From Flavobacterium pallidum (GTDB taxonomy: Bacteria; Bacteroidota; Bacteroidia; Flavobacteriales; Flavobacteriaceae), in assembly GCF_003097535.1 (NCBI RefSeq), contig NZ_CP029187.1:1922001-1986000 (forward strand): a stretch of DNA of 64,000 nt, written 5' to 3'. Made by a program: the position numbers and the translations under genes. Under the pieces are notes generated by a model. The model saw only the letters and a list, made by a program, of their open reading frames with translations. It searched no databases and had not been told where the DNA came from. Below are positions 3,598 to 14,257 of this stretch, one piece after another. Within the stretch, counting starts at the first letter, position 1, and every line of letters starts with the position of its first letter.

Positions 3598-6500
3598 TTA
3601 GAGAAAACTTCCTGACTTACTATAGACACTATTCATTCCACCAGGGTAACTACTATAGATGTGTTGATACACATTAATCGTTTTCTCACCTACATCTGTA
3701 TCCGAATAACTGTTTTGTGGAAGCCATTGCAATGAATCAAAGATTATAGTTTTCACTTGAGCCATCAGTTGCCTGCTTTCTCGCCAACGCTCAATCCTTA
3801 ATTTTTCAGCTTTAAGTTTTATAATTAAGTCCATAGAAACCTTTTTTACTTCCTTAATTTCTTTTACTGAAAGTTCCTTGCCGGACATTAGTAAATCAAA
3901 TATTGCTAAGGATTCCTGATCCAGTTCTTCCCGGAATGCCCTGGCTTCCTCAAATGTCAGATCTTGTATAAATTTGGTAAGGTTACCAAAAGCAGACATC
4001 GTGTCTTCAAGGCTCTTCCCTTTATTATATTCCTTAATGATTTCCTGATATCGATCATAAAATTCCAACCGCAATGGGTTTTCCTTAAGCATTTGCTCAA
4101 GCTTCATCTCAACGGCTTCCTGAAGGTCATACAATAACTTATTTTTCCTTTGGGTCTTTGCAAATGCAGCTTTCAGTTTATCAAAATCTAGCTTTGATAA
4201 ATCTATATAAATCCCATCAGGCTCACTAGTTAGATCAGGTTCAATAAACACACTTTCATTTACAATCTGCTGCAACTCCATGATAATTGATGTCACATCT
4301 GCCGATTTCACTTTTTGATTCAATTGCTGATAGACGGCTTCAATTGCATTAAATTCTCTTACAAACGCCTTAACCTGTTTCTCCGGATACAATGCATGAT
4401 ACTTACGAAATACATCCCTCGCCATCACTTCAAACTTTGTTCGAGTGGTTCCATTGAGGCATACACAGTCAATAGCCTCCCTGATATTGGCTATTTTTTC
4501 CATTGGCTTAGCATCTTCACTGCTCAGGTCAGCCAACTGAAAACCCAGTTCGCTTAAGTAACCTTTAGTCTGCCTGATAGATTCTTTTAGCTCGATCGTG
4601 AGGCTTTCCAGTAATTCAAATGGTCGGTCTGTTCCTGATGCCGCTCCAGTACCGTTACCCGATCCTCCTCCTTCTCCGTAAACCGAGTAAGCTTTTTCCA
4701 GTTGCTTATATACATTACCATAATCTACTATCAGTCCATTTTCCTTTTCATCATCATAAACCCTGTTAGCCCTGGCTATGGTTTGCATCAAGGTATGTCC
4801 TTTGATGGGTTTGTCAAGATAAACAGTTGAAATGCAAGGCGCATCAAATCCAGTAATCCACATAGCGCAAACAATCGCCAGACGGAACGGATTCTCTTCA
4901 TCCTTAAACTCTTTTTCTAAATTACGTTCCACAATCTTCTTCCTGTGAACCGCAATATCAAGGTTCATTTTGCGGAATTTTTCTACCTCATTCTGCTCTG
5001 AACTGACAATAACGCAAACTTCAGTCTCTTCAACCTTTTTAAGTTTACGTTTTATATCCTGTTGTTCTTCAATGTCTGCCGCTTTTTCTATCCGCTTCTT
5101 CAATTCAGAGATATATTCCGGCCAATACTTCATAAACAGTTCATACATTCTTACTGCCGTCGGTTTGTCCAATGCGACCAACATTGCCTTTCCCTGATAG
5201 CCTCGCTCGTTAAAATGCCACACCAGATCCTTTGCAATAGCATCGAGGCGTGGCTCCGCAGTAAGTATTACATAATCTTTTTGAAACAGGTAAGACAATT
5301 TGCGTTTTTGGTCATCGTCAATCTCCTCGTTTTCGAGAACTTCAGCCATACGCTCATCCAATTCCGGATTTGCAATACCCAGCTTTTCGCCCTTATTGAG
5401 ATAGCGCAGGGGTAGGGTGGCACCATCTTCAATGGCACGTTTAAAATCATATACCGATACATACTCCCCGAAAATATTCTTTGTCAGTTCCTCTTCATCT
5501 TTAATGATAGGAGTACCAGTAAAACCAAGGTACGAAGCGTTCGGTATGGCATGAAATCTCATATTCCGTGCAAACGTACCAGCCTGTGTACGGTGTGCCT
5601 CATCAGAGATCACAATAATATTCCTGCGTTCTGTAATCAAAGGAAACTCTGTTTCAACCTTCGGGTCAATCGAAAATTTATGGATTAACGAAAACACATA
5701 ACGATGGTTTTGTTTAAGTAATTCACGTAGGTTATCCCGACTTTTAGCAATAACCTCCTTACTCGTGGTCGCACCAACACCGGTAAAAGTATCATACAGC
5801 TGACGTTCCAGTTCACTCCGGTCTACTACAATCAGGAAAGTGTACGACCCGCCAAACTTCCTGTGTATCTTCTGGCATACAAAAACCATGGAATATGATT
5901 TCCCGCTACCCTGTGTGTGCCAGAACACACCAAGTTTGCCCTGTAATTCCTCAATGGTAGCCGCCTTGTCTATAACCTTATTAACCCCAATAAACTGGTG
6001 GTTCTTCGCCATAATCTTCACCACATCACCGCCGCTATCGTCAAACAAAAGGAAATTCTCGAAGATGTCCATCAGGTTTTGTTTGGAACAGGTGCCCCGC
6101 AGCATAGTATCCAGACTGACAATACCTTCCTCCTCCTCAGTAATACGTTTCCAATCCAGAAAGTATTTATATGGACTTGTTATCGTACCTACTTTCGCAT
6201 CAGTACCATTGCTGAGCAATATAAAAGCATTGCAATGAAAAACATGTGGTATCGCATCCTTATAGTCAGTAATATTATCGGTAAAGGCATTCCGTAAATC
6301 AGTATGATGCGCTTTTAATTCAAAAAACAGCAATGGAATCCCATTTACAAACCCAACAATATCCGGCCTGCGATTGTACAACTCCCCAACGACTTCAAAC
6401 TGTCTGACAGCAACAAAATCATTATTGCTGTAATCTTCAAAATCAAATACTTTTAATCTTTTCTTTTCGAGTTCTCCCTGAGCATTTGTAAAAGTAACCG

Positions 6501-6807
6501 GAACACCATCTTTCAGCAGCTCGCTCTTTTCCTTATTAATACGTGCCAAAGTCTTGTCGGCATTTTTTTGCTCTATCTGCTCAATAGCTTGTTGATAGGC
6601 GGAATCAGGCAAATCTTTATTATACCTTCTTAAAGCAGCCAATAAATTCCTGCGTAAAACGACCTCCGACTTGTTCTCACGTCCCAGCAAACCACTCTGT
6701 CCGAAAGTTTCTTTCTTCCAGGCTGTGATAACTGTCCAACCCAGTTCTTCGAGAACGTGTTGGGTGGCGGTTTCTATGAGGCCGTCTTCGGAGTATTCGT
6801 AGCTCAT
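3598..6807 (-). CDS. hsdR: Type I restriction enzyme, restriction/translocation subunit HsdR
   Basis: 1069-residue motor and nuclease subunit of a type I restriction enzyme; it cleaves DNA lacking the methylation set by HsdM/HsdS after ATP-driven translocation. Visible parts: an N-terminal PD-(D/E)xK nuclease core with D149 and E164-L-K166 (RPDIVGF...FFELKA), Walker A GSGKS at 300-304, a DEAH box at 402-405, and helicase domain 2 around GFDAPCIST and QTIARANR. Length is normal for HsdR. It is the last gene of the operon, starting 1 base after the stop of the DUF262 gene. No frameshift or missing core motif seen. Confidence 0.95.
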   Translation of the reverse strand: MSYEYSEDGLIETATQHVLEELGWTVITAWKKETFGQSGLLGRENKSEVVLRRNLLAALRRYNKDLPDSAYQQAIEQIEQKNADKTLARINKEKSELLKDGVPVTFTNAQGELEKKRLKVFDFEDYSNNDFVAVRQFEVVGELYNRRPDIVGFVNGIPLLFFELKAHHTDLRNAFTDNITDYKDAIPHVFHCNAFILLSNGTDAKVGTITSPYKYFLDWKRITEEEEGIVSLDTMLRGTCSKQNLMDIFENFLLFDDSGGDVVKIMAKNHQFIGVNKVIDKAATIEELQGKLGVFWHTQGSGKSYSMVFVCQKIHRKFGGSYTFLIVVDRSELERQLYDTFTGVGATTSKEVIAKSRDNLRELLKQNHRYVFSLIHKFSIDPKVETEFPLITERRNIIVISDEAHRTQAGTFARNMRFHAIPNASYLGFTGTPIIKDEEELTKNIFGEYVSVYDFKRAIEDGATLPLRYLNKGEKLGIANPELDERMAEVLENEEIDDDQKRKLSYLFQKDYVILTAEPRLDAIAKDLVWHFNERGYQGKAMLVALDKPTAVRMYELFMKYWPEYISELKKRIEKAADIEEQQDIKRKLKKVEETEVCVIVSSEQNEVEKFRKMNLDIAVHRKKIVERNLEKEFKDEENPFRLAIVCAMWITGFDAPCISTVYLDKPIKGHTLMQTIARANRVYDDEKENGLIVDYGNVYKQLEKAYSVYGEGGGSGNGTGAASGTDRPFELLESLTIELKESIRQTKGYLSELGFQLADLSSEDAKPMEKIANIREAIDCVCLNGTTRTKFEVMARDVFRKYHALYPEKQVKAFVREFNAIEAVYQQLNQKVKSADVTSIIMELQQIVNESVFIEPDLTSEPDGIYIDLSKLDFDKLKAAFAKTQRKNKLLYDLQEAVEMKLEQMLKENPLRLEFYDRYQEIIKEYNKGKSLEDTMSAFGNLTKFIQDLTFEEARAFREELDQESLAIFDLLMSGKELSVKEIKEVKKVSMDLIIKLKAEKLRIERWRESRQLMAQVKTIIFDSLQWLPQNSYSDTDVGEKTINVYQHIYSSYPGGMNSVYSKSGSFL

Positions 6808-6808
6808 G

Positions 6809-8905
6809 TTAAGTTGCTTTAACTAGTTTGGATAACAAGTTAGGATTTCCGCCGTTTAGATTACCTTTTGTATTAAATATTTTTTTTGACTTTTTAAAAT
6901 ATTTGTCCTTGCGGTGACCATTTATCTTATGTAACGCATTATAATTATCTCCAGAAATTGAAATATAAAATCCCTCATCCCACATTTTTTCCGCGTCTAT
7001 ATTTTTAACATACCAGACAAGCTGATAATGCAAATCTTCAGAATCTTCCTCATACTCGATTGTAATCTGATCTAAACGATTTTGATAAAATTTCTCGATA
7101 GTTAAACCTCCCATCAAGAATTCCTTAAAAAATATTTTAAAAACATTATCTCGAATTGTTCTGCGCCAATTATTAAATCTGTAGTTGTAATAATAATTTG
7201 GAGTGACCTTTTGCCAAAACGGCCCATAACTTATTAATAAATTAATTGCCTTTTTTTCGTTGAATTTAACGAATTCAAAATAACTCTGCTTTATCAAAGA
7301 CAAATTTTCTATAGCCAAGGAGCGTGTATAATCAATAAGGTGACTACTATTAATACTGTTCATATCACTTCCGTCAAGGTTATATCTATGGTCTTCTAAC
7401 TCCCAAATGATTTGTTCCATCTCGCGAATAACCTGTGAGTTCGAATTTAACAACGCTCTGTGCTTAAGATTTTCTTCTTCACGTTCCCGTCCGAATTCAA
7501 ATTGCCATACACCGTCGTGTAACAATCCTTCAACATCCTTTTTGATTTGAACTACACTTCTTACATTGTTATTAAAGCGCAAATAGTAAATTCGGAGCAT
7601 TCTGAAAATTTCATCTGTAAAACTTTCATTAATTTTCTCATCAGACAGATACAATAATAATGACCAGATAAACACCATTCTCCTTTGTTCCGTCGTTCTG
7701 TTAGCATCATTGAAATCCGCAAACCAATTGGTTTTGGAATTCAAAATTATCCAAATTTCTCCGATTGCCTTTTGCAACCAATCTATATTGCTGTAATGAC
7801 TTTTAAAAGTTTTAGCTAAAGTCTTAAGTTTTACAAATCCATCGTAATACTTCTCTATTTTTTCTAAGCTTAAACTATTGGAAATAAACCGAATAGATAT
7901 TTTATTATTTAAATAATCTAAGTGTGAAACGAATCTGGACTTGTCGTCTGCTAAATAATTTTCTAAGCCTGCAATGCACATTAAAAAACTATCAAATCCT
8001 CTATCCGCATTTGAATTATTACCTTTTTTTTTCCAAAATAAATCCTGCCAAATTTCCCATTTTCTTCCCCACGTTATTACCGTTGTTTTATCTTCAATTT
8101 CTTCAAAAAGAAGGGCGCGAATATTTTCATTATCACTAATTGCTTTTCCCCTTGAATTCATAGTAATGTAAAGTTCCTCACCTTGGGATGTTGCGTTAGT
8201 ATTAAAGTGCCAAAACCTAACACGATTTAATATAAAATCATAGTCCGCTTCATCCATACTAAAACACAATCTATTGATGGTCTGAAAGCCTTCATTGATA
8301 GATTTTATTGTAGTGTCGTTTTTATAATTCTCTAAATACCAGGTTTTTTTAGATAATGAGTTTAGGTCATCGATAGTATTTGAATTATTAATAAGATCTA
8401 ACATAAAATCCTGAGTCAGATTTCTCACCCTATAATTAAACGCCAGGCTTTTTCGGCTTTTATCAAATCTAATATCTTTAAGGAATAAATCCTTTTTCTT
8501 TAATTTTATCGAGAGATAAAAACAAAGTAAAAAAAGCGAAGTAAATCGCTGTTGTCCATCAATTAAAAATAAATCGGCTATCTCATCATTATTAATGTAG
8601 TTGGGCCTATATGTATAAAGAAATCCAATGTCCATTGCTTTTTCTGCATGAAACTCATCTTTAATTTTTTGAATTTCAGCTAAGCCATCACTGCCTTTTT
8701 CTTCAAAGATTGATTTGATTTTATTATCTAATGCCTCCTTTTTTAAACCCTCATGTTTTTTTGAATCTTTGAGTCCAATAATTATGTCTTGAAGGAATTC
8801 TTCTAATATTTGGTTACTTATCAATCCCCAAACATATTCACGTTGTATTTCAGGAACGATTAAATTCTTTTTTTTAATAATGTCTTTTATACTTAATTGC
8901 TCCAT
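6809..8905 (-). CDS. DUF262 (ParB-like/GmrS-type) protein embedded in the hsd operon
   Basis: 698 residues. The N-terminal DUF262 domain is recognisable by VPEIQREYVWG (17-27) and IDGQQRFTSLF (115-125), the DGQQR motif that in GmrS and SspE proteins belongs to the nucleotide-hydrolysing ParB-like fold. I do not see the D-x-E-H-I-F-P motif of a DUF1524 nuclease, unlike the neighbouring paralogue. The ATG overlaps the stop of that paralogue by one base (TAATG) and hsdR follows after 1 base, so all are co-transcribed. The gene is clearly more AT-rich than hsdR and hsdM, which suggests separate acquisition. Likely an accessory anti-phage factor (inference). Confidence 0.85.
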   Translation of the reverse strand: MEQLSIKDIIKKKNLIVPEIQREYVWGLISNQILEEFLQDIIIGLKDSKKHEGLKKEALDNKIKSIFEEKGSDGLAEIQKIKDEFHAEKAMDIGFLYTYRPNYINNDEIADLFLIDGQQRFTSLFLLCFYLSIKLKKKDLFLKDIRFDKSRKSLAFNYRVRNLTQDFMLDLINNSNTIDDLNSLSKKTWYLENYKNDTTIKSINEGFQTINRLCFSMDEADYDFILNRVRFWHFNTNATSQGEELYITMNSRGKAISDNENIRALLFEEIEDKTTVITWGRKWEIWQDLFWKKKGNNSNADRGFDSFLMCIAGLENYLADDKSRFVSHLDYLNNKISIRFISNSLSLEKIEKYYDGFVKLKTLAKTFKSHYSNIDWLQKAIGEIWIILNSKTNWFADFNDANRTTEQRRMVFIWSLLLYLSDEKINESFTDEIFRMLRIYYLRFNNNVRSVVQIKKDVEGLLHDGVWQFEFGREREEENLKHRALLNSNSQVIREMEQIIWELEDHRYNLDGSDMNSINSSHLIDYTRSLAIENLSLIKQSYFEFVKFNEKKAINLLISYGPFWQKVTPNYYYNYRFNNWRRTIRDNVFKIFFKEFLMGGLTIEKFYQNRLDQITIEYEEDSEDLHYQLVWYVKNIDAEKMWDEGFYISISGDNYNALHKINGHRKDKYFKKSKKIFNTKGNLNGGNPNLLSKLVKAT

Positions 8906-10782
8906 TACAACAAATAGTTAAATATTATTTCCTTGATTGATTTGAAACTGTTTTCTACATCTACGTTAGTCCAATGCTCCAGATCTAAACTTTGGATACT
9001 TGACTCATCTTGAAATGCCCTCACGAACACGTTAAATGTATGAGGGTGGATGAAGTTCCCTTCGTTACTTTCCTGTATAAGCCTCAATCTTTTTTTCGAG
9101 TATGGATTATTCTGAATACTCCTATTTACAGACGAATCGAGTAAAACCAAATTACCTATGGAATTTGTATCCACATCGTCGGTAAATTTTTCTACGAACT
9201 TTTCGATTTTGTTCCTGAATGAGTCTTGAGCAAATTTTTCCTCGAACTTTTCGATATTAAACCTGTCACTTTCATTTTCAACTCTATATTTATTTATGAA
9301 TTCTATGTAAGATCTAAAATCAGATGCATTTTTGCTCTTTGGAGTCTTTGGGAAAATATGCTCAATATCTCTGTCTAATCTGTGAAATGCAATGGCGGGT
9401 AATTTTAGATTACTCCCTTGCTGCTTTGTGACGTGAATGATGTCAAGCAACAAAAGGATTTTTATCAACTCTTTCTGTGAAAGCGCTTCATCATACCAGT
9501 CTTTTTGATCTAGAAACTCTGCTGGGTCTTCACTAGTGGGAAAGAACTCTTTAAATTTATCTTTATAAAAATCGTGATAATTGCCATGAGTTTTTTCCTC
9601 GAACTTTCCGAGAATTCCTTCTCGAATAATGCCTTTTAATTCATCTATAAACTTTTGTCGGGTTTTATCTTCTTGATTCCATAACTTATAAATTTCTTTG
9701 AAAGAGGCATCTTTTTTTAACTGATTAAAAATATATCCCAAGAAATGATAAATATATTTATCATTGTACCAATCTGTCAAAGTATTGTGCAACTTGATAA
9801 TTTCCAAATAGGTTGTTATTATGTCAAGTTGTCCTTCAATAAATTGAATTTCTAGGCTTTTCCCCTTTGTCTGTGCAAACAAGTAGTATAAATTATTAAT
9901 TGGATATTGCTCACTATCAAATTTGATATCGCCTTTAGATTGTTGAGTTATAAAGCTGCTGAAATAACTTTTAGTTTCTTTGTTGCTCCACCAATTGTTC
10001 AATTCATCAAGTTCCCAGCCTATTCTAACGCGCTCTTCATTGATTTTAATTTGTAACTTTTGATCAGTGTCGTCATGTCCAAATTTAAATTTCGCGACTT
10101 TTGTAATTAATATTGCGCGAATTAGGTCAGAACCATCTAAAGGTATTCTCTTTGAATTAACATTTCCAAATACTTTCTCTTCGTCAGTGTCTTTGAGGTT
10201 ATTCACTATGAACTTTACATTTTCCAGTATTTTAGTTGAGAATTTTTCTTTTTTAAACGAAGGATATTCATCTTCTTTATCTTCAAACCATCCATTTACC
10301 GTTCTGCATGTTGAACATAAGTAAAATATATCCTGATAATTAAACTCTCCATTAGTTTGGGTGTTAAATTCGTCCCAACTCATACGGTATACATCCAAAA
10401 CTCTGTCCAAAATATAAGTTGTCTGAAATTCAAAAGTTTTTGATCTTATTGAATCTTGTGGATAGCTTAATTTATCTCTTATGAGTTCTTTTTCTCCGAG
10501 AAATGACAATATAATATAGAGTGTTGTGAGACGTTGCTGGCCGTCAACTACGTTAAAATAGCTATCTGATTTATTTACTAACGTAATATTTTGTAGACAA
10601 TAAAATTCGTTCTGTTTGCCCTGAAATTTAAAAATGTCATCTAATAAAGTTGTCACTTCGTTTTCAGACCATTTATATCCACGCTGATACTCTGGAATAT
10701 TATAGTGGGTCTTTTTATTCTGAGATAAGAATCCTGACTTACTATCAAATACTTCTGCCACACTATAGATAAAATTACTCAT
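8905..10782 (-). CDS. DUF262-DUF1524 protein (GmrSD-like) embedded in the hsd operon
   Basis: 625 residues from the ATG at 10782; a longer reading would need a TTG start at 10809. The N-terminal DUF262 domain shows IPEYQRGYKW (~29-38) and VVDGQQRLTTLY (~78-89). The C-terminal DUF1524 His-Me-type nuclease motif is DIEHIFPKT (~472-480), followed by IGNLVLLDSSVN and a conserved N...YSKK segment. This is the layout of type IV GmrSD and of SspE, which sense modified phage DNA and cut it. It lies between hsdS and the second DUF262 gene, 86 bases after hsdS, and is AT-rich. Substrate unknown. Confidence 0.88.
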   Translation of the reverse strand: MSNFIYSVAEVFDSKSGFLSQNKKTHYNIPEYQRGYKWSENEVTTLLDDIFKFQGKQNEFYCLQNITLVNKSDSYFNVVDGQQRLTTLYIILSFLGEKELIRDKLSYPQDSIRSKTFEFQTTYILDRVLDVYRMSWDEFNTQTNGEFNYQDIFYLCSTCRTVNGWFEDKEDEYPSFKKEKFSTKILENVKFIVNNLKDTDEEKVFGNVNSKRIPLDGSDLIRAILITKVAKFKFGHDDTDQKLQIKINEERVRIGWELDELNNWWSNKETKSYFSSFITQQSKGDIKFDSEQYPINNLYYLFAQTKGKSLEIQFIEGQLDIITTYLEIIKLHNTLTDWYNDKYIYHFLGYIFNQLKKDASFKEIYKLWNQEDKTRQKFIDELKGIIREGILGKFEEKTHGNYHDFYKDKFKEFFPTSEDPAEFLDQKDWYDEALSQKELIKILLLLDIIHVTKQQGSNLKLPAIAFHRLDRDIEHIFPKTPKSKNASDFRSYIEFINKYRVENESDRFNIEKFEEKFAQDSFRNKIEKFVEKFTDDVDTNSIGNLVLLDSSVNRSIQNNPYSKKRLRLIQESNEGNFIHPHTFNVFVRAFQDESSIQSLDLEHWTNVDVENSFKSIKEIIFNYLL

Positions 10783-10868
10783 AATTAAATTTTTGCTTTG
10801 TGCATCCAAAAAGTTGCCGGATTTATAGTTGACACATTCAAAATGAGGCTAAACATTTTATGCATAGT

Positions 10869-12692
10869 TTAATAATTAAAAATTGTAGGTAAAAACCCAA
10901 TCGCTCTCCCAATATTCCCATCACTAAAAATTTCCCTTTCCAACTTCGCCTTCCATTCCAGCTCCTTCTTAATAATTCCTTTTACGTTCTCTACAGTAAC
11001 AGGCAAATCATTTTTATACAATTCAATCATCGTACTATCCACAGTAGCATATAACTCCAATTCATCATTCGATTTATATTTAAACTGGCTTTCCAGCCAG
11101 TTCATATAATCATTGCTCCAATATTTTTCAAAGTAACCCTTTGCTACAACAATGTTTTGACCTGCAATAAACCCCGTCAGATTACCATTTTTATGGTCAA
11201 CCACATAACCATTTTGGTGTGCAATCTTTTCTGGTCCGGCATACTTTGTTTTAGGATTGTAAGGCCCCGCAGCTTTCCGCAGATAATCTGCTATCTGGTT
11301 GTCAGCATGGCGATGGAATAAATAAGAAAGTTTCGTATAACGTTTCCTGCCTAGTGGATACTTTTCACTGCCAAATCTTTCAGTTAAAACTGATATTAAA
11401 ACTGCTTCTTTGAATTCTTTAGATGCTTCTTTTATTTTGGCTTTTTGTATTGGAATAGTTAATGTTTCTAGCTGTTCTTTGACCTTCTGCACTTCAATCT
11501 TCCCACTCATCAACCGCGGCAATAAAATATCTCGGGATTCTTTGAGAAGACGGTTTTCAATACCAAGATTAATTTTCAAGTTTAGCCAATCATTAAATTT
11601 ATTGATATAATTGTCGATTTCTTTTGGTGGAATAACTATTTCGATTGTGTCTAAGTGTTTTTTTCCTAAGTGTGCTACCGTAGCTCCTGAAATTGTTGCC
11701 TCAAAATACTTAATAGGCTTTACGATTGCTTGTGAAAGATAACCGTGATAAAATTTATCTACTGCTTTTATATTGCAAGAACGCTGAACTAAAAAAGCTT
11801 TTGGCCCCGACCAATTATTTATATAGAACTCGCCGTCCATACCAACTAATAAATCTCCCTTTTTTACTAAAAATTTATCGTTAACTTTCTCTGTTGTGAA
11901 ATCATTTGTGTTGGAATTTGGAATATTTCTAATACGTATTATTGGCATACCCTTTTTATCTGTGTTGAACTGATTTGCTTTAAAAGCAAAACCATTGCTT
12001 ATTTCAGCGATATCAACAAGCATCTTCCTTTCCCACCCCTCCGGCAACCCATTCTGCCCAACCTCCAACTGCACCCCATTCACCCTAAACTTCACAAACC
12101 ACTCCTCATAAGTCCGCTGCGCCAATTCTTCAAGCAGCTTAATACGTTTCAAATTGTTTTCTATTAGATCGTCGTATTGCGACAGTATATATCCTATTTT
12201 TTGTTGAACATCAAAATTAGGAAGGGCAATTTTAAATTTTCTGATTGAACCTAACGTAATACTTGCTTGATTTGCTGCTCCTTGAGCTGTGCTTAAATTG
12301 TAAAACTTGAAGCTTTCATCTTTCAGCCTGTAAAACAAAAAATCGCTATCCACGTTTTCAAGGGGAACAATTTTCACAATATTCTGATTGAGCAATGCAT
12401 TTTCTAGTTGTTTTGGTACTCTAACAACTTTACCAACAATTGATGCTGGATTGCTTTGCCACGAACCAACAGTTTGGATCAAAATGTCTTTGTGCCGTAG
12501 TTTATATTTATGAAATTTACCTGCCTCATCATCAGAATAATATAACAAATCATCAGTAGAAATTGAATCACTTGTAAAATTTGAAGCTCTAACAATAGGT
12601 GTTCCTTCTTTAACGTATAAACTACTTTTAAAAGCATTACCTTTTAATGTAGTCATTATTCCCCCCAACTCAACTTCTTGATATTCTCTCAT
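10869..12692 (-). CDS. hsdS: Type I restriction enzyme, specificity subunit HsdS with C-terminal extension
   Basis: 607 residues, longer than the usual ~400-450. Two target-recognition domains: residues ~1-160 and ~225-370, each followed by a conserved helical spacer (first spacer ...RIKLLEELAQRTYEEWFVKFR; second ...ESRDILLPRLMSGKIEV). HsdS sets the sequence recognised by the methylase and the nuclease. After ~400 there is an extra domain of about 200 residues (LTERFGSEKYPLGRKRYTKL ... RKAAGPYNPKTKYAGPEKIA) resembling the winged-helix Panacea/SocA-like module (inference). Overlaps hsdM by 4 bases. The spacer region is richer in G+C than the AT-rich recognition domains, fitting recombinational swapping. 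Confidence 0.92.
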   Translation of the reverse strand: MREYQEVELGGIMTTLKGNAFKSSLYVKEGTPIVRASNFTSDSISTDDLLYYSDDEAGKFHKYKLRHKDILIQTVGSWQSNPASIVGKVVRVPKQLENALLNQNIVKIVPLENVDSDFLFYRLKDESFKFYNLSTAQGAANQASITLGSIRKFKIALPNFDVQQKIGYILSQYDDLIENNLKRIKLLEELAQRTYEEWFVKFRVNGVQLEVGQNGLPEGWERKMLVDIAEISNGFAFKANQFNTDKKGMPIIRIRNIPNSNTNDFTTEKVNDKFLVKKGDLLVGMDGEFYINNWSGPKAFLVQRSCNIKAVDKFYHGYLSQAIVKPIKYFEATISGATVAHLGKKHLDTIEIVIPPKEIDNYINKFNDWLNLKINLGIENRLLKESRDILLPRLMSGKIEVQKVKEQLETLTIPIQKAKIKEASKEFKEAVLISVLTERFGSEKYPLGRKRYTKLSYLFHRHADNQIADYLRKAAGPYNPKTKYAGPEKIAHQNGYVVDHKNGNLTGFIAGQNIVVAKGYFEKYWSNDYMNWLESQFKYKSNDELELYATVDSTMIELYKNDLPVTVENVKGIIKKELEWKAKLEREIFSDGNIGRAIGFLPTIFNY

Positions 12693-14257
12693 ATCAATTC
12701 CTTTAAATTTTCAGAAATAGTCTTACTCAAAACCAAAGCCTCTGCATTCAAAACATCCAATTCCTCCTGTATTTCAATCAACCGTGTTTTATAATCAAAA
12801 TCCTCATCCAATGACAAAGTCACCCCCACAAAACGCCCAGGCGTCAGGCTGTAATCATTCTCCGCCACTTCTTCAACAGTTACAATCTTGCACAGCCCTT
12901 CAATGTCCGTATATTGGCTTTCAGGAAAGCGCTCATTAAACCATTCATTATTCCCGGCAACTTCCGGCTTCTCGCCGCGGTACATTTGCATGATTGCCGT
13001 CAAACCTTCCAGCTGGTCATCACTAAAATCATTAATTGTCGTACTTACTTTGCGGAACACATTACGTGCATCAATCATCAGTATCTTATTCTTATTCTCC
13101 GGCTTTTTGCCCTTATCATAAAACCATAAGTGGCATGGCAGTGAACGCGTATAAAAGAAATTATTCGAGATAGAGACAATACAATCCACAGCGCCGCTTT
13201 CAATCAGTTGCTTCCGGATCAGTTTTTCACTATGCCCGGCATCAGTTGCAGAACTCGCCATGACAAATCCCGCACGGCCTGTAGCATTGAGGTAACTGTA
13301 AAAATACTGCATCCACATATAGTTCGCATTATCACTCTTCGGCAACCCAAACGGCAATCGCGGATCTTCTTTCACAAAATCCCTGTTCTTGTCCACTTTA
13401 TTTACGTTAAACGGCGGGTTCGCCATGACGAAATCGCACTTCTCAAACAAGTAGTGCGGGTCGCTGTAAAAGCTGTTCGCTTCAATGATTTTACCCTCAA
13501 TACCGTGAATTGCTAGGTTAATTTTAGCAAGTCGGGTGTTGTTGGTTTTCTGCTCGGTACCATAGCAGGTAATCGCCTCATTCACACCTTTGCTCGTATG
13601 GTCTTTTACAAAATAGCCTGTCTGCACAAACATACCGCCCGAGCCACATGCCGGGTCATGGATAATACCATGGTCAGGCTGTATAAAGTTTACTATCAGT
13701 TTCACAAGGCTTGGTGGCGTAAAGAACTCACCACCTTCCTGTGCACCCGCTCCCTGCATTGAAAACTTCATCAGGAAATATTCATATATCCTTCCAAAGA
13801 CATCTCCTGTAGCTTTTTTTACCGCATCCTTATTAAATACACGAATCAGGTCGCGCAAAAGGTCACTTTCAAATTCCTGGTAATTCTTAGGAAGGTTACC
13901 CTGTAAATCAGGATATTCCGTTTCAATGGTTTTCATCGCATTGTTTATAGCCTCAGCGATATCTGCACCCTCGGGTAAGTTGGCTAAGTATTCATATTTT
14001 GCCTCATTAGGCAGCATGATGGCTCCGGCAGCAAGGAAATCTTCTTTGGTTGCAGCACGTTTGCCTCTTGGCCCGTCCGGGATATTGGCTTCAACTGCCG
14101 GTCTGGCTTCCTCATATTTATTCTGTGCAAAGCGAAGTAAAACAAGTCCCAATACAGGGTCTTTATATTCGGCAGCGGTTAACTTACTGTTTGCTCTTAG
14201 CGAATCGGCAGCATCCCATAGTTCTTTTTCAAGTTGCTTGATTTGGTCTTGGGTCAT
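12689..14257 (-). CDS. hsdM: Type I restriction enzyme, DNA methyltransferase subunit HsdM
   Basis: 522-residue adenine-N6 methyltransferase subunit, normal length. Helical HsdM_N domain at ~10-140, SAM-binding motif I DPACGSGG (201-208), and catalytic motif IV NPPF (280-283) in DFVMANPPFNVNK. It methylates the host sites together with HsdS and supplies the core of the restriction complex with HsdR. First gene of the minus-strand operon, with its stop overlapping the hsdS start by 4 bases. No clear TAnnTTTG element was found upstream; a weak TACTTTTA lies near 14290. Confidence 0.95.
   Translation of the reverse strand: MTQDQIKQLEKELWDAADSLRANSKLTAAEYKDPVLGLVLLRFAQNKYEEARPAVEANIPDGPRGKRAATKEDFLAAGAIMLPNEAKYEYLANLPEGADIAEAINNAMKTIETEYPDLQGNLPKNYQEFESDLLRDLIRVFNKDAVKKATGDVFGRIYEYFLMKFSMQGAGAQEGGEFFTPPSLVKLIVNFIQPDHGIIHDPACGSGGMFVQTGYFVKDHTSKGVNEAITCYGTEQKTNNTRLAKINLAIHGIEGKIIEANSFYSDPHYLFEKCDFVMANPPFNVNKVDKNRDFVKEDPRLPFGLPKSDNANYMWMQYFYSYLNATGRAGFVMASSATDAGHSEKLIRKQLIESGAVDCIVSISNNFFYTRSLPCHLWFYDKGKKPENKNKILMIDARNVFRKVSTTINDFSDDQLEGLTAIMQMYRGEKPEVAGNNEWFNERFPESQYTDIEGLCKIVTVEEVAENDYSLTPGRFVGVTLSLDEDFDYKTRLIEIQEELDVLNAEALVLSKTISENLKELI

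Follow-up and report, generated by a model that had tools for sequence, protein, structure and literature searches.

A GrwAB-like pair of DUF262 genes nested in the hsdS-hsdR interval of a Type I restriction operon in Flavobacterium pallidum

We analysed a 64-kb stretch of the Flavobacterium pallidum genome (contig NZ_CP029187.1, positions 1,922,001 to 1,986,000; hereafter the window), in which a Type I restriction-modification (T1RM) operon carries two extra genes of the DUF262 family, here called the cassette, between hsdS and hsdR. All five open reading frames (ORFs) are intact and lie on the minus strand, and their families were assigned by Pfam. The order hsdM-hsdS-(DUF262+DUF1524)-(DUF262)-hsdR proposed in an earlier note on this DNA agrees with the ORFs and the Pfam domains, and the outer bounds it gave for the two extra genes, 6809-10782, are exact. 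The parts of the operon are as follows (aa, amino acids).

12689-14257, minus strand: hsdM, Type I methyltransferase subunit, 522 aa (Pfam N6_Mtase 3.6e-78, HsdM_N 3.8e-19)
10869-12692, minus strand: hsdS, specificity subunit, 607 aa (Pfam Methylase_S 1e-31, two stretches)
10783-10868, minus strand: gap of 86 bases separating hsdS from the cassette; no promoter of sigma-70-like type found on the operon strand
8905-10782, minus strand: first cassette gene, GrwA-like, DUF262-helical linker-DUF1524 nuclease, 625 aa (Pfam GmrSD_N/DUF262 1.3e-27, GmrSD_C/DUF1524 2.4e-7)
6809-8905, minus strand: second cassette gene, GrwB-like, DUF262 with a long C-terminal region, 698 aa (Pfam GmrSD_N 1.6e-19 only)
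3598-6807, minus strand: hsdR, Type I restriction/translocase subunit, 1069 aa (TIGR00348 5e-143, Pfam HSDR_N 1.7e-39, SWI2_SNF2 8e-67)

The operon has the components of a Type I system, namely an intact hsdM, an hsdS with two target-recognition domains and a C-terminal extension of about 200 aa, and an hsdR with nuclease and translocase domains, which gives the only full-length HsdR_N match in the genome (a single contig of 3.55 Mb). The hsdM and hsdS genes overlap by 4 bases, the two cassette genes share 1 base, and one base (6808) separates the second cassette gene from hsdR. The earlier description of 1-base gaps or overlaps is wrong for the junction between hsdS and the first cassette gene, because the distance there is 86 bases from the ATG at 10782, or 59 bases from an in-frame TTG at 10809. 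No sigma-70-like promoter was found on the operon strand of this gap, in a scan that omits Bacteroidota promoter types and whose overall yield was no better than that of shuffled sequence (42 vs 36.5). The G+C content is 43.6% in hsdM and 40.7% in hsdR, whereas it is 35.0% in hsdS and 31.9% and 30.6% in the cassette genes, as expected if the middle of the operon had been replaced and its frame kept; other causes are possible. Two of the three DUF262 matches in the genome are the cassette genes, and the third is an ORF of about 372 residues (G000:C1:3192129-3192599, locus L002, E = 5.8e-28).

The following motifs and regions were located in the two cassette genes.

10531-10545, minus strand: DGQQR motif of the nucleotide pocket, first gene, residues 80-84, kept in 56/56 aligned proteins
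9349-9363, minus strand: E-H-I-F-P of the His-Me nuclease, first gene, residues 474-478, catalytic histidine 475; E474 and H475 invariant in 56/56
9124-9153, minus strand: N544 and N553, the two nuclease asparagines, 9 apart; invariant in 56/56 with constant spacing
8546-8560, minus strand: DGQQR motif, second gene, residues 116-120, invariant in 55/55 aligned proteins
6812-8044, minus strand: C-terminal region of the second protein, about 411 residues, mostly helical, no recognised fold; no Pfam family and no EHxxP nuclease motif

The first cassette gene alone encodes a complete GmrSD, with DUF262, a helical linker and DUF1524, and carries the motifs Q33R34, D80-R84, F205xxxN209, H475, N544 and N553. 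Pfam domains and gene order bear out the claim of a GmrSD-family pair inside a Type I operon. The description of this pair as a split sensor and nuclease is not supported, since the second gene adds an extra DUF262 partner to an already complete enzyme. DGQQR is present in both proteins and the D-I-E-H-I-F-P nuclease motif is confined to the first, both as proposed. In alignments of 56 first-gene and 55 second-gene proteins (window sequences included), DGQQR is invariant in both sets, and R84, H475, N544 and N553 are conserved in all first-gene proteins with a constant N-x8-N. A regular expression recovered DGQQR from 74/78 second-gene and 73/76 first-gene ORFs, fragments included. For 19 of the 76 first-gene relatives the expression did not pick up the EH motif; this is no evidence of motif loss, since the alignment has E and H invariant in 56/56. 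The single-chain AlphaFold2 model of the first protein has a mean pLDDT of 89.6. Its best match among PDB structures is SspE (E = 1.8e-5) and its nearest PADLOC family is HEC-06 (2.3e-22). The proposed likeness to the SspE kind is supported by nothing more than common domains and fold, and no match to DndC (TIGR03183) was found in the genome; SspB, SspC and SspD were not sought.

The second cassette protein was also modelled well as a single chain (mean pLDDT 90.3), and past residue 287 or so it is mostly helical and falls into no family. It gave nothing at E = 0.01 against PADLOC and NCBIfam. A degenerate DUF1524 domain was considered for this protein and rejected: profile comparison aligned DUF262 only, and the best Foldseek match was BrxU at an E-value of only 0.015. 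Of the solved structures, chain B of PDB 9jfl, a 596-residue "DUF262 domain-containing protein", gave the best match to each of the two cassette profiles (4e-18 and 9e-8).

A scan of genome contigs with the profile of the second protein gave 89 relatives, of which the best 80, representing 79 distinct loci, were kept. These best 80 come mostly from Bacteroidota, with some from Spirochaetota, Ignavibacteriota, Campylobacterota and Gammaproteobacteria. In 75 of the 79 loci, the gene immediately upstream, on the same strand, is a first-gene homologue. Among the remaining four, the second gene is cut by a contig end in L050, L082 and L085, and in L086 it is present but under-scored. The spacing between the two genes, taken to the first possible start codon, ranges from -37 to +15 bases, except in one frameshifted contig (L026, 335 bases). 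The nuclease gene also comes first in three plasmid records (L012, L013 and L014). The pair is a conserved two-gene unit with the nuclease gene first. In viral sequences, two second-gene relatives were found in viral contigs, and the first gene had only short partial matches in two phage records.

In gene order, domains and catalytic residues, the pair matches GrwAB as described in the literature, the comparison being with the published description and not with the Vibrio sequences. GrwAB, the described system nearest to the pair and one that the earlier note does not name, is encoded in VSP-II of Vibrio cholerae and acts against phages whose DNA contains 7-deazaguanine or sugar-modified cytosine (Adams et al. 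2025, PMC12137116). It is likewise a two-gene operon with the nuclease gene first; the first gene has the DUF262-helical linker-DUF1524 architecture with QR, DGQQR, FxxxN and the H/N/N residues, and the second combines DUF262 with an extended C-terminal part of unknown domains. The residues reported as essential in GrwA are R81, H431, N521 and N530 (PMC12137116), the same set as R84, H475, N544 and N553 in the window. Escape from GrwAB maps to phage DpdA (PMC12137116; review PMC12409362). The location differs, as GrwAB lies beside a Shedu gene in a Vibrio host, whereas the window pair lies in an hsd operon.

A precedent for the position is TgvAB, encoded in VPI-2 of V. cholerae, where two DUF262 genes in a Type I operon protect against Tevenvirinae (Vizzarro et al. 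2024, PMC11411939). According to that study, both genes are needed, an HsdR nuclease mutant leaves the protection pattern unchanged, and the pair without T1RM still protects. Loss of phage glucosylation escapes TgvAB (PMC11411939; review PMC12409362), and the same review contrasts GrwAB with TgvAB (PMC12409362). As in the window, two DUF262 proteins, one of them with DUF1524, are encoded between hsdS and hsdR of a five-gene operon. However, the DUF262-only gene comes first there (VC1767, then VC1766), which is the reverse of the window order. In two Vibrio plasmid pairs typed as TgvAB by their layout (L131 and L132), the partner has 446-447 aa with a DUF7834 domain, whereas the window partner has 698 aa and an unrelated C-terminal part. 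When the window protein was compared with 10 TgvA-type proteins defined by layout, the profiles aligned over DUF262 only (residues 4-287), and no DUF7834 match was obtained. The window pair is therefore not TgvAB in gene order, and its partner appears unlike that of the TgvAB-layout pairs.

A move of the nuclease domain between subunits, relative to the TgvAB layout, was considered after a BLAST comparison with one comparator pair (L131). The window first gene was nearest the first gene of that layout (1e-14 vs 5e-10), and the second nearest the second (4e-7 vs 2e-5). The idea was set aside after DUF262 trees and AU tests, which did not decide between the groupings. Once filtered for coverage and redundancy, 72 of the 218 sequences collected entered the trees, and the AU run dropped 12 of 24 single GmrSD rows. 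Window-type first genes, window-type second genes and TgvA-layout genes each formed one clade, and the TgvB-layout genes almost did. The trees leaned towards window-type first and second genes together, at 0.88 in FastTree and at 72, with two intruders, in IQ-TREE. None of the four groupings tried was rejected by AU (first with second, p = 0.63; first with first, 0.44; second with second, 0.59; window-type first with TgvB-layout, 0.58). Whether two-protein GmrSD had one origin or two seems to be beyond what the DUF262 domain can decide.

Several other systems share parts of the arrangement. RloF, from the hsd loci of Campylobacter jejuni (Miller et al. 2005, as cited in PMC4619093), is a DUF262 gene in the same hsdS-hsdR position, but neither a pair nor a phage phenotype appears in the passages of PMC4619093 that describe it. 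Machnicka et al. 2015 (PMC4619093) found Type I genes more enriched around GmrSD homologues than any other neighbours. GmrSD, BrxU, SspE and HEC-06 have the architecture of the window first protein; they are described as one-protein nucleases, whereas an adjacent second DUF262 protein accompanies the window type in 75/79 relatives. One McrBC branch, that of Escherichia coli K-12 McrBC, is often operonic with Type I systems (PMC11090510). This too places a Type IV system in an operon with a Type I system, and in close relatives of the window operon McrBC occupies the same slot (see below). The enzymes are unrelated, McrBC being an AAA GTPase with the McrC nuclease. DarTG2 and another gene pair have also been described between hsdS and hsdR, at a site called a potential recombination hotspot (PMC12255303).

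To score nesting across the relatives, a pair counted as embedded if, on its own strand, hsdM/hsdS lay no more than 6.5 kb upstream of the second gene and hsdR no more than 3 kb downstream of it. Flanks were adequate in 60 loci, with 6 kb or more ahead of the second gene and 3 kb or more behind it. Of these, 17 are embedded, two have the upstream part only, one has the downstream part only and 40 have neither. At least three of the 40 (L031, L043 and L088) carry hsd genes elsewhere in the fetched stretch. The 19 loci with shorter flanks comprise one with hsdR downstream, one with hsdM/hsdS upstream and 17 with neither. Because the hsd models were derived from the window's own genes, 17/60 is a lower bound. 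With the same-strand embedding repeated in 17 of 60 full-flank relatives, a chance arrangement is unlikely.

On a tree of 55 second-gene proteins with 18 embedded rows (window included, L033 scored by hsdR alone), the embedded state requires 13 parsimony changes, a count that omits five rows with unknown flanks. At least eight changes are forced by well supported branches when those five are taken as not embedded. L040, L060 and L070 were scored as not embedded with flanks below the full-flank limit. The embedded state clusters barely more than by chance, since 48 of 500 shuffles were as low. Embedding has thus been gained or lost repeatedly, and the use of the hsd nest by a second protein family is new here. 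According to the earlier note, the link would be accidental if the pair were found mainly away from hsd genes. Most relatives do lack hsd genes in the embedding positions, yet embedding recurs many times on the tree, so the link of the pair to hsd is neither obligate nor plainly accidental.

Around the 61 loci scored as not embedded, a WYL-like regulator (recognised by eye, and by annotation in L012 and L013) was seen in 13 and a 3'-5' exonuclease in 11, mostly upstream and on the same strand (L012 5689-11112, where the exonuclease is RNase_T; L013 6439-11022). These are possibly a control gene or a third component. In L046 (6996-7409) and L032 (7126-7539), 138-residue proteins that look alike by eye are encoded between hsdS and the pair.

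In the 17 embedded operons, HsdR and HsdM co-diverge (Mantel r = 0.99), as do the first and second cassette genes (r = 0.81), whereas the cassette genes follow HsdR more loosely (r = 0.42 and 0.32, p = 0.001 and 0.0025). Operons with HsdR 67-72% identical to that of the window have first genes only 27-43% identical to the window's, and in six embedded operons the HsdR identity falls to 22-24%. Because similar HsdR proteins accompany divergent first genes, and the pair occurs in divergent HsdR families, the cassette seems to move as one unit between hsd frames.

The hsdS-hsdR interval was also surveyed independently of DUF262, by searching for HsdR relatives in 249 family-level and 395 phylum-level genomes. 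Seven other operons with an HsdR identity of 66% or more came from the genome searches, and a plasmid search gave an eighth (Emticicia, 67.6%). The slot of these eight nearest operons holds McrB-McrC in six (L164, L165, L166, L167, L198 and L199), a GrwAB-type pair in one (L168) and a dCTP deaminase in one (L232); in L166, hsdS and hsdM are further upstream, in a second stretch. McrC (PF10117) and its AAA_5 partner were confirmed by Pfam in L164-L167, and L198 and L199 were called by models from those four. L164 has an additional HipA-like gene in the slot and L166 a 1541-residue helicase. HipA-like two-gene modules stand directly before hsdR beside Type IV cargo in L018 (12431-13740) and L164 (6756-8065), with HipA_C confirmed in L164 only. 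L232 is the Emticicia oligotrophica plasmid pEMTOL01, typed as conjugative, with a slot made up of the reverse-strand dCTP deaminase and two hypothetical genes. No McrC match was found in the window's own genome.

The McrBC systems form three groups. McrC is 51-86% identical within L164/L166/L198 and 58% within L165/L199, and L167 stands alone at 29-31% to the others; between the first two groups, identity is 19-24% or no match is found. L164 and L165 share 86% identity in HsdR and 88% in HsdM (over 312 residues), yet only 24% in McrC. Of 32 distant loci fetched, five were dropped (L204, L206 and L210 without hsdS in reach; L205 and L207 with only an hsdM-like fragment of about 100 residues). 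The remaining 27 distant operons (HsdR 38-51%, hsdS found) hold a Type IV family in four (McrBC in L219, DUF262 proteins by model in L224, L228 and L229), nothing in three and other genes in the rest, including RhuM-Fic, Schlafen, OLD-like ATPase, Fic and IrrE-like proteins. The family scan covered 10 of 53 unassigned distant-slot ORFs, and two of the 10 had no family. In all, 34 of 52 other HsdR places were examined; the 18 left were mostly partial or weaker matches, one with little upstream DNA. Type IV systems thus occupy the slot in 7/8 near vs 4/27 distant operons (Fisher p = 0.0003, descriptive only because the rows are related, 11 of the 27 coming from one genus code).

The slot looks like an exchangeable cargo space. 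For this lineage, a stronger proposal is that the hsdS-hsdR interval would be a dedicated Type IV slot. The hsdM/hsdR frame would be kept and hsdS with the cassette swapped by recombination, so that the Type I enzyme would stay paired with a modification-dependent enzyme while sequence specificity and modification range change, with GrwAB-type pairs and at least three McrBC groups alternating. We regard this proposal as an even bet. Also new here is that the pair apparently interchanges with McrBC in this slot, the nested systems themselves having been discovered already. Among the papers listed, none dealt with an alternation of Type IV modules between hsdS and hsdR, nor with GrwAB-type pairs inside hsd operons; both statements were judged from titles and abstract openings, mainly in the open literature, and are weak evidence of novelty.

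The HsdS extension (10869-11480, minus strand) has no Pfam family and no plasmid match. Among the ORFs compared, it recurs (E about 1e-75) only in the HsdS of L168 and L047, and all three operons with it, that of the window included, carry a GrwAB-type pair. A resemblance to DUF4065 suspected by eye received no support from Pfam.

GrwAB and TgvAB both act on phages with modified DNA and each needs both of its proteins (PMC12137116, PMC11411939), and for this reason a combined defence, with the Type I enzyme and an arm against modified DNA, is likely. Taken as a whole, the best explanation, to which we assign a probability of about 0.8, is that a GrwAB-like pair serves as the modified-DNA arm beside the Type I enzyme and that the cassette is exchanged in one piece. 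Homology suggests that the two proteins, both with DUF262, would form a complex. Nucleotide binding and hydrolysis in the DGQQR pockets would provide the link by which a bulky modified base, once recognised in incoming DNA, activates the first protein's His-Me (DUF1524) nuclease, and the long helical C-terminal region of the second may serve in assembly, in recognition or in resisting phage inhibitors. Phage DNA without host methylation would be cut by the Type I enzyme, and phages that block this cutting with hypermodified bases would face the second arm. Both systems are probably in one transcription unit, and exchange of the cassette as a unit would let the slot accept different Type IV modules.

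Several observations weigh against this explanation. Hsd genes are missing from the embedding positions in 40/60 full-flank relatives, and one of the eight near operons, L232, carries cargo that is not Type IV. The C-terminal region of the second protein has no Foldseek match with E <= 0.001, viral library included. The likeness to GrwAB was read from a description, and activity and target are what we infer from the published systems. The need for a partner is uncertain, because HEC-06, the nearest PADLOC family of the first protein, is described as acting alone (PMC11411939). Finally, TgvAB alone was reported to be 10-100-fold weaker than the whole cluster against several phages (PMC11411939), so context may matter.

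One alternative concerns the slot rather than the pair. The hsdS-hsdR interval could be a recombination hotspot that gathers defence genes, with a Type IV neighbour bringing no functional advantage. The hotspot idea is already published (PMC12255303), and the distant operons, with their many other cargoes or with none (3/27), speak for it. On the other hand, Type IV systems fill the slot in seven of the eight nearest operons and come from four divergent lineages (the three McrBC groups and the pair), vs 4/27 of the distant operons, in samples that are small and related. We consider such hitch-hiking possible but unlikely.

The pair could also guard the Type I enzyme, being triggered when a phage anti-restriction protein blocks HsdM, HsdS or HsdR, in the way that PrrC is triggered by T4 Stp in the EcoprrI locus (PMC12707154). 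The constancy of its place between hsdS and hsdR wherever embedding recurs, the DarTG2 genes in the same slot in enteropathogenic E. coli (EPEC; PMC12255303) and the weaker protection by TgvAB alone than by the whole cluster are in keeping with such a role. However, in 40/60 relatives the embedding positions hold no hsd genes; the divergence of the pair is largely independent of that of HsdR, and the pair occurs in hsd families only 22-24% identical in HsdR; and TgvAB protects without T1RM, its pattern unchanged by the HsdR nuclease mutant (PMC11411939). We consider a guard quite improbable. Still less probable is an SspE-like discrimination of self from non-self, in which the pair would read methylation from the operon's own HsdMS and the two arms would form one coupled system: the DUF262-DUF1524 architecture shared with SspE, the rank of SspE as best PDB match of the first protein and the physical embedding suggest it, but the pair is mostly outside hsd operons, it occurs with HsdM proteins as far apart as 21-22% identity, and phage escape comes through DpdA from GrwAB and through loss of glucosylation from TgvAB (PMC12137116, PMC11411939, PMC12409362).

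A GrwAB-like modified-DNA arm beside the Type I enzyme remains our preferred explanation. Nesting a cutter of modified DNA in a cutter of unmodified DNA closes the route by which phages escape through base hypermodification, as was shown in V. cholerae with TgvAB. The locus described here suggests that the same solution is reached through a different two-protein family, repeatedly, in Bacteroidota and some Gammaproteobacteria, and in close relatives of the operon unrelated McrBC enzymes at this position appear to do likewise. Should a larger survey bear out the slot pattern, Type IV systems could be predicted by a simple rule, and the natural swaps would let one ask whether the pairing matters.

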